DNA from: a candidate division KSB1 bacterium
Lineage (GTDB): Bacteria; Zhuqueibacterota; JdFR-76; DREG01
Assembly (NCBI GenBank): GCA_022566355.1
Contig: JADFJB010000134.1
Location: 1-11,936 of the forward strand
Length of the DNA stretch: 11,936 nt
Direction: 5' to 3'
Shown here: in pieces, positions 3,379 through 11,936 of the stretch
Layout: each line of letters begins with the position of its first letter
Position numbering within the stretch: position 1 is the first letter of the stretch
The notes under the pieces: generated by a model
Database searches by the model: none
What the model was told of the DNA's origin: nothing
Seen by the model: the letters and a program-made list of their open reading frames with translations, nothing else
Made by a program: the position numbers and the translations under genes

Positions 3379-3921
3379 TTGGAACGGTTGCAGCAACAAA
3401 AATCAAAAACAATATTTTTTATATTCCTGTTTTGCAGTTGTGTTTTTTTCTGCTCTTGTTTAAATCCGTTTGCGCCGGAACTAAAAGAGCAATCTCAACC
3501 GACGGATTTAATCATAACGAACCAGGAAACCCCGGATGATGTGCTCACAAATTTTCGTTATGCCTATATTTTTAAAGATTCGTTAATTTATAGTGAATTG
3601 TTGGACAGTTCTTTTATATTTTATTACTTCGATCCCAATATCGGAACTACAGGTCAATTCGTTTCCTGGGGTCGTGATTTGGATCTAAAAACAACCGGAA
3701 AACTTTACCGTAGCTTTAATGTTATTGATTTGGTTTGGAACACAACCATATATGAATCGGTTCAAGAATCTACTGCTGAAATCACAAAAACGTTTAATTT
3801 AACTTTATTTTCTAATGATGAAGGTTTGCGAATAAATGGGACAGCTGTTTTTAGCTTTAGGAAAAATCTTTCGTCCGGCATTTGGAGAATTAACAGATGG
3901 AAGGATGAATCCAATTTATAG
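3379..3921 (+). CDS. Small lipoprotein of unknown function
   Basis: I do not recognise a named family. The 180-residue reading lacks an ATG. TTG at 3379 lies one base after the previous stop, and TTG at 3388 is an alternative, with AGG at 3376-3378 nine bases upstream. The N-terminus is hydrophobic and Cys-rich (IFFIFLFCSCVFFCSC), and Cys27 followed by L-N-P-F is the likely lipidated residue. The remainder has alternating strands and helices: PDDVLTNFRYAYIFKDSLIYSELLDSSF looks like the first helices of an NTF2/SnoaL-like cone fold, and the end (FSFRKNLSSGIWRINRWKDE) like its last strands. That fold guess rests on pattern only. Tight packing on both sides places it in the envelope operon, so an outer-membrane or periplasmic accessory role is likely. 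Confidence 0.72.
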   Translation: MERLQQQKSKTIFFIFLFCSCVFFCSCLNPFAPELKEQSQPTDLIITNQETPDDVLTNFRYAYIFKDSLIYSELLDSSFIFYYFDPNIGTTGQFVSWGRDLDLKTTGKLYRSFNVIDLVWNTTIYESVQESTAEITKTFNLTLFSNDEGLRINGTAVFSFRKNLSSGIWRINRWKDESNL

Positions 3922-7658: not shown

Positions 7659-7682
7659 ATAGGAATTTTTTCCCGGTTTTTT
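7640..7682 (+). terminator. Weak AT-rich hairpin between the sigma and anti-sigma genes
   Basis: The 3' end of the sigma gene carries ggaaaaaat (7640-7648), which pairs with attttttcc (7665-7673) across a 16-base loop. A run of six T follows at 7677-7682. The stem is nearly all A-T, so it is a weak terminator at best. It would explain the unusual 98-base gap between two genes normally co-transcribed tightly, and might lower anti-sigma expression relative to sigma. It may also be chance in AT-rich DNA. Confidence 0.25.
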
Positions 7683-7756
7683 AAGTTAATCATAAACAGA
7701 AAATGGACGAAAGAATTATAAACAAAATGGATTAATCCTGTTACTGATATTTTATA

Positions 7757-8419
7757 ATGAACTGTAAAGAAATTAAATCACATATTTCATCTTTTATCGA
7801 TGGACAATTGGAGCATGATCTGGAGCATCAGACTCAAGCTCATCTTTCTGAATGTGAGTTGTGCAGATTAGCTTTTGAATCCGATAGTGAAATGAAATTT
7901 TTGTTTCAAGAGTCCGTTTATGCTCATGAAGCACCGAGTAAACTCAAAAGAAAAATTCGAAAGGCAATTTCAAAAGACAGTCGAAAAGAGACTTTTCTCT
8001 TCGGATTTTTCAACCAGCCGAGATTAACAGTGGCAGCGGTTCTAACGGTAATGGTATCAGCGTTTCTTGGAATTCAAGGCTATAAAATGATGACACCCGT
8101 TAACCATTTTGACGTTTCGTATGTTGAAAACTTGAGTGGACATATCGAATGTATCGGATGTTATTATACTCAATATCAAAATGCTGAAAATTTCTGCGCG
8201 AAACACGGTCATTCACCGGCAATCATGGCGGAAAACAAAGAAGTATATTCTTTTATACCCAACGAAAAAAGCGCTGAACTAAAAGAAGAATTCGTTGATT
8301 CGGTAATTAGGGTGAGCGGCTGGGTTTATTATCAATCGAATTTTATTGAGATTGAAAGCTACGAGATTGTCGAATCAGATGTGGCTTCTATTTATCCTTC
8401 AAAATTTGTTCAAAATTAA
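7757..8419 (+). CDS. Membrane anti-sigma factor with ZAS zinc motif and periplasmic Cys/His domain
   Basis: This 220-residue protein has a cytoplasmic zf-HC2/ZAS domain with C3, H29, C33 and C36, that is C-x25-H-x3-C-x2-C. This is the full set of zinc ligands, with the same spacing I recall for the redox-sensitive RsrA. One membrane helix spans about 90-109 (LTVAAVLTVMVSAFLGIQGY). The periplasmic part, about 126-210, holds C132-x2-C135, C147-x2-H150-G-H152 and the strand patterns YSFIPN and IRVSG...IEIESYEI, which look like a small beta-barrel. The same domain makes up the next gene. Its normal job is to hold the upstream ECF sigma factor at the membrane. The Cys/His domain could sense thiol redox state or a metal, but that is inference. 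No Shine-Dalgarno sequence is evident; the ATG gives the normal MNCKEI-type start of this family. Confidence 0.88.
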   Translation: MNCKEIKSHISSFIDGQLEHDLEHQTQAHLSECELCRLAFESDSEMKFLFQESVYAHEAPSKLKRKIRKAISKDSRKETFLFGFFNQPRLTVAAVLTVMVSAFLGIQGYKMMTPVNHFDVSYVENLSGHIECIGCYYTQYQNAENFCAKHGHSPAIMAENKEVYSFIPNEKSAELKEEFVDSVIRVSGWVYYQSNFIEIESYEIVESDVASIYPSKFVQN

Positions 8420-8426
8420 GAAGATT

Positions 8427-8801
8427 ATGTTTTATCGATCTACACTTCTGGTTCTATTGGTTTGCTTCTTTCCAGTATTTCTCATGGCTCAAGTGAATCA
8501 AAATAAGCCTAAAACAGACAATAGTCTTATGGATGTGGAAGGGAAGTTGGTTTGTATCATTGAAGAGATGGCTAAATTGCGTGATGTAAAACCAACCTGT
8601 CCGGAATACGGACATATTATTGGCATCCGGGTTTCGGATGGAACGATTTGGTCTTTTTATCCGAATCCATATCAAAAAGAATTGCATGAAAAAAATCTAA
8701 TCGGGAAAAAAATCAAAATAACCGGAAGGCTCTTTTACGATGGGAAAATCATTGAGATTGTAAAATATCAATTTATCGAGTTTAAAATGAATAAATCTTG
8801 A
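8427..8801 (+). CDS. Secreted paralog of the anti-sigma periplasmic domain
   Basis: I do not recognise a named family. From the ATG at 8427 (124 aa) the protein has a signal peptide, cleaved probably after A21 (VCFFPVFLMA-Q). A single domain follows, about 37-120. It aligns with residues 126-210 of the upstream anti-sigma factor with one gap and about 22 identities by hand count. The matches include G39-x3-C43, C58, G62-H63, W75-SF-x-PN, EL-x-E, the I-x-(I/V)-x-G turn and I-IEI-x-x-Y. C135 and H150 of the anti-sigma factor are not kept. The frame is open upstream to 8346, but that start would overlap the previous gene by 74 bases and lose the signal peptide. AAGAAG at 8418-8423 overlaps the previous stop. 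It starts 7 bases after the anti-sigma gene, so the two are one unit. It may be a soluble periplasmic metal- or redox-binding partner. Confidence 0.75.
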   Translation: MFYRSTLLVLLVCFFPVFLMAQVNQNKPKTDNSLMDVEGKLVCIIEEMAKLRDVKPTCPEYGHIIGIRVSDGTIWSFYPNPYQKELHEKNLIGKKIKITGRLFYDGKIIEIVKYQFIEFKMNKS

Positions 8802-8829
8802 TTTTGGGGGCTAATATCATTTCCCTTTT

Positions 8830-8885
8830 GACAGGATTAACAAGATATACTGGATTTTTTTCCAGATAATCCTGTTTATCCTGTC
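8830..8885. repeat. Imperfect palindromic dispersed repeat upstream of dsbD
   Basis: The left arm starts gacaggattaacaagata (8830-8847) and the right arm ends aatcctgtttatcctgtc (8868-8885). They pair at 15 of 18 positions. Inside them ctgga (8850-8854) and tccag (8861-8865) extend the hairpin around a T-run loop. From memory, this 'gacaggat...atcctgtc' form is a widespread intergenic repeat in unrelated bacteria. It fills the 124-base gap before dsbD. It lacks a following U-tract, so it is not a standard terminator, but it could stabilise or attenuate the transcript. Confidence 0.75.
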
Positions 8886-8925
8886 TAAAAATGAACTATG
8901 AACAGATCAAATTAACTGCAGAACA

Positions 8926-11791: not shown

Positions 11792-11817
11792 AATTCCAGC
11801 CATTCAGTCTCTAGTCT

Positions 11818-11936
11818 CCAGCATCCAGCATCCAGCATCCAGTATCTGGTATCCGATATCCAGCATCCAGTATCCAGTATCCAGTATCCAGTATCCGGCA
11901 TCCGGCATCTGGCATCTGGCATCCGGCATCTGGTAT
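11818..11936. repeat. Heptanucleotide tandem repeat, 17 units, reaching the window end
   Basis: Seventeen contiguous 7-base units fill 11818-11936 exactly. The forms are ccagcat, ccagtat, ctggtat, ccgatat, ccggcat and ctggcat. Units 1-4 and 7-11 are mostly ccagcat or ccagtat; the last six are ccggcat or ctgg-type. All differences between units are C/T or A/G changes, and the final 'at' never varies. Two more degenerate units, tcagtct and ctagtct, precede it at 11804-11817. The array continues beyond the window. It has no spacers, so it is not CRISPR. Confidence 0.93.

Follow-up and report, generated by a model that had tools for sequence, protein, structure and literature searches.

In a stretch of DNA of 11,936 nucleotides from a candidate division KSB1 bacterium (the window), a membrane-anchored zinc-motif anti-sigma factor carries on its periplasmic side a previously undescribed Cys/His domain with a predicted OB fold, and the gene that follows encodes a small secreted protein homologous to this domain. 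The arrangement of sigma factor, anti-sigma factor and secreted relative is real and is unusual among zinc anti-sigma systems (Table 1). Comparisons at the sequence level show the homology, a shared predicted fold, a conserved site, a conserved promoter element and the gene order. Our leading reading, still a tentative one, is that the anti-sigma factor, which is RsrA-like and anchored in the membrane, senses thiol or metal stress in the periplasm, and that its sigma-induced soluble relative acts as a buffer or in feedback.

Table 1. Features of the sigma/anti-sigma locus in the window (positions are those of the window; G001 and G002 are two other genera of its family).
Feature	Position	Strand	Evidence
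ECF sigma factor, SigR/SigH-like, 202 aa	7050..7658	+	Pfam Sigma70_r2 and r4_2 over cut-off
SigR/SigH-type promoter GGAAT-N18-GTT, between sigma and anti-sigma genes	7662..7687	+	Same element in the same place in G001 and G002
Membrane-anchored zinc-motif anti-sigma factor, 220 aa	7757..8419	+	Pfam zf-HC2, 27.9 bits over cut-off 22.2
Cytosolic zinc motif C3, H29, C33, C36 (C-x25-H-x3-C-x2-C)	7763..7864	+	Pattern found; RsrA spacing
Transmembrane helix, anti-sigma residues 90–108	8024..8080	+	Top hydropathy window; helix 88–112 in model
Predicted periplasmic OB domain of anti-sigma factor, residues 122–206, with C132, C135, C147 and H152	8120..8374	+	AlphaFold2, structure matches, alignment
Secreted stand-alone OB protein, 124 aa	8427..8801	+	Homology; pLDDT 91.5; adjoins anti-sigma gene in G001 and G002 too
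Signal peptide of secreted protein, about residues 1–22	8427..8492	+	Hydrophobic from residue 5, ends LMAQ; putative cleavage site
Site residues C43, E46, C58 and H63 of secreted protein	8553..8615	+	Conserved in three genera
DsbD, 609 aa	8926..10755	+	Pfam DsbD_TM, DsbD_N, thioredoxin; same place in G001 and G002
TlpA/ResA-like thioredoxin, 174 aa	10759..11283	+	Pfam Redoxin, AhpC-TSA; same place in G001 and G002

The best NCBIfam model for the sigma factor is TIGR02947 (SigH_actino; SigR/SigH sigma factors form group ECF12) at 171.3 bits, below the cut-off of 251.55, and the anti-sigma factor scores 42.4 bits against the RsrA model TIGR03988, below the cut-off of 62.5; by these scores, both proteins differ from SigH and RsrA. 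The anti-sigma profile nonetheless matches the RsrA structure 5frf (E 6.9e-10), and the zinc residues of RsrA, C11, H37, C41 and C44 (PMC4960319), have the same spacing as those in the window. The motif H29-x3-C33-x2-C36 plus C3, with the sigma gene directly upstream, marks the protein as a putative zinc-binding anti-sigma (ZAS) factor.

The initial annotation had proposed that the periplasmic domain recurs in the adjacent protein, with about 22 identities and one gap by hand count. The two adjacent open reading frames are present as claimed, the second with an ATG start, and BLASTP bore out the count, aligning anti-sigma residues 125–206 with residues 36–118 of the secreted protein at 22/83 identities with one gap (E 7e-12). 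Smith–Waterman alignment gave a score of 107, compared to a mean of 26.1 and a maximum of 49 for shuffled sequences (n = 2000; z 17.3). When the secreted protein was searched against the whole 4.6-Mb genome, it matched only itself and the neighbouring anti-sigma factor (E 1.2e-7). Profile–profile comparison of the two domains was also significant, with a probability of 98.7% (E 2.9e-16) when the secreted copies were compared with the anti-sigma domains from the same three genera, and of 99.4% (E 3.3e-21) when the anti-sigma set comprised 18 domains from other families. The alignments reproduced the proposed pairing of C132, C147 and H152 with C43, C58 and H63, and the cysteines are 15 residues apart in both proteins.

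AlphaFold2 predicted an OB fold for the secreted domain (mean pLDDT 91.5) and the same order of strands and helices for anti-sigma residues 122–206; the alignment for the first model contained anti-sigma rows, and the two models are thus not fully independent. The best structural matches of both models were the NigD-like OB chains 3k6o, 3k0y, 4j8q and 4pqx, with Z about 7 to 8 (top 8.2), a level that may mean a common fold only and does not imply family or function; NlpE structures matched at Z about 6 to 7. NigD-like proteins and NlpE have a similar OB fold, with no sequence match to the domain in the window. A profile search found no clear sequence relative of the domain among solved structures, and no Pfam or NCBIfam family scored above its cut-off. 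The secreted protein reached 14.6 bits against Pfam DUF4431 (cut-off 24) and one distant relative 11.4 bits against DUF5818 (cut-off 27), and the secreted protein had no RseB-family match in Pfam or NCBIfam.

The Cys/His site first proposed, C132, C147 and H152, stands but was incomplete, as it overlooked C135, which completes a CxxC with C132. This CxxC is kept in 24/24 anti-sigma homologues checked. Most anti-sigma relatives have a His in place of C147, so that the site can be written more generally as C-x2-C ... C/H ... H. Where the anti-sigma domain has C135, the secreted copy has E46, giving CxxE, and the secreted copy therefore cannot be an exact copy of a CxxC-based switch. All secreted copies of the window's family have C, E, C and H at the site positions; the stand-alone proteins of another phylum, that of G120, have C, E and H, often with an extra H two residues before. 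Such C/H and C/E ligand swaps between subfamilies would be easier to reconcile with a metal site than with a simple disulfide pair.

The promoter element GGAAT-N18-GTT lies between the sigma and anti-sigma genes in all three genomes of the window's family (f1), with unlike spacers, and upstream of the corresponding operon in 21/23 loci; permuted patterns averaged 0.56 loci, with one of them, presumably a near-copy of the real pattern, scoring 19. Among other families of the phylum, the element lies upstream of the sigma gene in f10 and f12. In f16 the operon begins with a TlpA gene, and the element is found either 5' of this gene or just within its reading frame as called. The element agrees with the consensus published for SigR and SigH; C. 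glutamicum likewise has a SigH-dependent promoter before its anti-sigma gene rshA, at the position seen in the window (PMC3489674). We infer that the sigma factor of the window reads this element. The genes for the anti-sigma factor, secreted protein, DsbD and TlpA look like one stress-induced operon and would be co-transcribed, with read-through into dsbD being an assumption, since a dispersed repeat (window 8829–8886) separates it from the secreted-protein gene. The right arm of this repeat, GATAATCCTGTTTATCCTGTC, has 24 copies in this genome (≤2 mismatches), 2 in G002 and 0 in G001, with 0 for the reversed control.

A 10-base promoter pattern had 25, 11 and 20 matches in the three f1 genomes versus 9, 1 and 4 for the reversed pattern; most matches fall inside genes, and therefore no regulon is claimed. 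Exact intergenic patterns were seen before an epimerase/DUF1731 gene (Pfam) and before a small DUF1289-like protein (by eye) in G000 (L114:1501-2448 and L142 near 1468), and before a gene for a DUF427-like protein (by eye) in G001 (L130 near 344), and these genes are possible regulon members. In G028 (L072:6934-8188), an anti-sigma gene has the promoter element before it and no sigma gene recognised alongside.

Behind the anti-sigma gene, the three f1 genera share one gene order: secreted copy, DsbD, TlpA. Genes for DsbD/CcdA and/or TlpA adjoin the sigma genes in 3/3 f1 and 8/8 f16 genomes, the gene next to the anti-sigma gene in G024 and G036 being recognised as TlpA only; the f10 and f12 loci are mostly without these neighbours. 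Three f10 genomes have a gene for a SoxA/TsdA-type cytochrome behind the anti-sigma gene, with the same promoter pattern before it (two identified by Pfam, the third by eye). DsbD/CcdA, TlpA and this cytochrome act in the periplasm, which would be in keeping with a redox or metal cue there. A cytochrome c maturation locus, guessed from the sizes of the relatives' downstream genes, was rejected when Pfam identified a lipid kinase, DUF2064 and glycosyltransferases. In G030 (L077:6174-7493), sigma and anti-sigma factors share one open frame of 439 aa, which may be a fusion or a sequencing error.

These features would fit a mechanism in which the RsrA-like anti-sigma factor keeps the SigR/SigH-type sigma factor at the membrane, and in which the OB site of the anti-sigma factor most likely binds a metal or is a metal-protected thiol switch. 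The sensor is most probably the tethered OB domain, which would respond to periplasmic thiol-oxidising or metal stress; disturbance of its site would free the sigma factor to read GGAAT-N18-GTT promoters. As the f1 promoter lies between the sigma and anti-sigma genes, the induced unit would comprise the anti-sigma factor as brake, the secreted OB protein as a soluble homologue of the sensor, and DsbD and TlpA, which would bring the periplasm back to a reducing state. The soluble protein would most likely buffer the same ligand, or be kept reduced by DsbD/TlpA and thereby help to reset the switch. This role as buffer or feedback is the weakest step of the mechanism, and we consider it rather doubtful on its own. 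A bolder version, with one Cys/His OB module used both as tethered sensor and as sigma-induced soluble partner that delivers the ligand (a metal or sulfur species) to the tethered copy or removes it there, so that the two form a matched sensor–buffer pair of one fold in an undescribed sensor family, is a long shot.

The distribution of the domain bears on the role of the secreted protein. The domain was found in 24/82 genomes of the window's phylum, and in 21 of the 24 (f10, f12 and f16) it is present as a single copy within the anti-sigma factor. The trio of sigma factor, anti-sigma factor and small secreted protein, which the initial annotation had suggested looking for elsewhere, occurs in 3/3 genera of f1, the only family of its phylum with two copies side by side, and does not extend to the other 21 domain-bearing genomes; the soluble copy is thus accessory, which argues against the secreted protein being an obligate partner. 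The phylum of G120 has the domain in 57/84 genomes, as a stand-alone protein in all twelve loci examined (L086–L097), where the members have an extra zinc-ribbon-like, Cys-rich C-terminal tail, YYYCDTCYIRTVAPGNCDCCQ, with no Pfam match. Stand-alone members also occur in single genomes including G123, G235, G128, G289, G383, G423, G463 and G465, and the phylum of G135 has the domain as an anti-sigma fusion. The domain belongs to a wider family, mostly of small secreted proteins, which is fused to RsrA-like anti-sigma factors in two phyla.

In a first alternative, the secreted protein would be a regulon effector only, a protective metal- or thiol-binding member of this widespread family with no sensing role; its likeness to the sensor would then reflect the origin of the anti-sigma factor's sensor domain in the secreted family. 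The many stand-alone members without any anti-sigma partner, the usual occurrence of the sensor without a soluble copy, and the failure of the two f1 copies to join in trees all speak for this explanation. However, in each of the three f1 genera the soluble gene comes immediately after the anti-sigma gene, suggesting a closer link than shared regulation, and we regard a pure effector as unlikely, though it is the strongest of the alternatives.

In a second alternative, redox sensing would fall to the cytosolic zinc motif, as it does in RsrA; the OB domain in the periplasm would be structural or used for docking, with its site holding a structural metal only. The window's anti-sigma factor does have the full C-x25-H-x3-C-x2-C motif with RsrA spacing. 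However, the cytosolic motif is missing in 6/24 anti-sigma homologues, which retain the OB site and still have the promoter element; given the invariant CxxC, the periplasmic domain is the better conserved input. We consider a purely cytosolic sensor improbable.

The least favoured alternative is that of the initial annotation, a tandem duplication in the f1 ancestor that produced a soluble decoy competing with the tethered copy for ligand, and we think it quite improbable: adjacent homologous domains found within the phylum only in f1, and the C, C and H common to both copies, agree with it, but in the best trees the f1 secreted copies do not join their own anti-sigma domains and group with stand-alone proteins of another phylum that have the CxxEEM motif (support 93/88 and 89/89); in trees built without the CxxEEM proteins, the secreted copies fall, with weak support, beside the anti-sigma domains of the phylum of G135. 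A tree constrained to unite the f1 secreted copies with their own anti-sigma domains in one clade is worse by 4 to 9 log-likelihood units, and the tests do not reject it (p 0.15, 0.10 and 0.27); the trees neither favour nor reject a single clade. The earlier claim of a duplicated domain is thus upheld as regards homology and not as regards gene duplication.

Among known systems, SigR–RsrA of Streptomyces and SigH–RshA of Corynebacterium and Mycobacterium resemble that of the window in the sigma factor, which is most like SigH_actino, and in the GGAAT element. RsrA is a soluble protein of 105 aa that senses disulfide stress in the cytoplasm, whereas the 220-aa anti-sigma factor of the window adds a membrane helix and the predicted OB domain. 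SigR–RsrA systems are known for sensing within the cytosol. In the window, a comparable module is anchored in the membrane and has a periplasmic Cys/His domain, which persists even in relatives that lack the cytosolic zinc motif. With one promoter element, one tethered copy, one soluble copy and two thiol-repair enzymes, the window is a compact test set.

The sensor modules of the RsgI anti-sigma factors of Clostridium thermocellum are also present in secreted proteins under the same regulation, but they bind polysaccharides, and the RsgI sigma and anti-sigma families differ from those of the window. In SigL–RslA of M. tuberculosis, the anti-sigma factor is likewise membrane-associated, with a redox-sensitive cytosolic zinc domain (PMC2877774); RslA is described there by this domain, with no mention of a periplasmic OB domain or soluble relative, a contrast by description only. 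ChrR, the partner of RpoE in Rhodobacter, is a zinc anti-sigma domain fused to a cupin that is the real sensor, of singlet oxygen (PMC2877774), whereas Pfam found no C-terminal cupin in the window's anti-sigma factor, which instead has the predicted OB fold behind the membrane helix. In EcfF–OsrA of Bradyrhizobium, conserved cysteines of the membrane anti-sigma factor, one of them thought to face the periplasm, matter for the peroxide response, and the regulon includes a DsbD-type protein and a periplasmic thioredoxin, resembling the neighbours in the window (PMC3420878). OsrA, a DUF1109 protein, has six helices in the membrane and is by family unrelated in sequence to the window's anti-sigma factor.

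Further observations concern the surroundings of the locus. An unnamed lipoprotein-like gene of 180 aa (window 3379–3921) has no Pfam or NCBIfam match, and its homologues (44–68% identity) lie close upstream of the sigma gene across the phylum. The contig ends in a 7-base tandem repeat with the consensus TCCAGCA in about 16 copies (window 11817–11936). In G289 and G423 (L192:4732-8333 and L194:4375-8102), stand-alone OB members lie directly upstream of a Peptidase_MA/PD40/Omp85 homologue with 41–43% identity to the gene preceding the sigma gene in the window, a link that may mean something.
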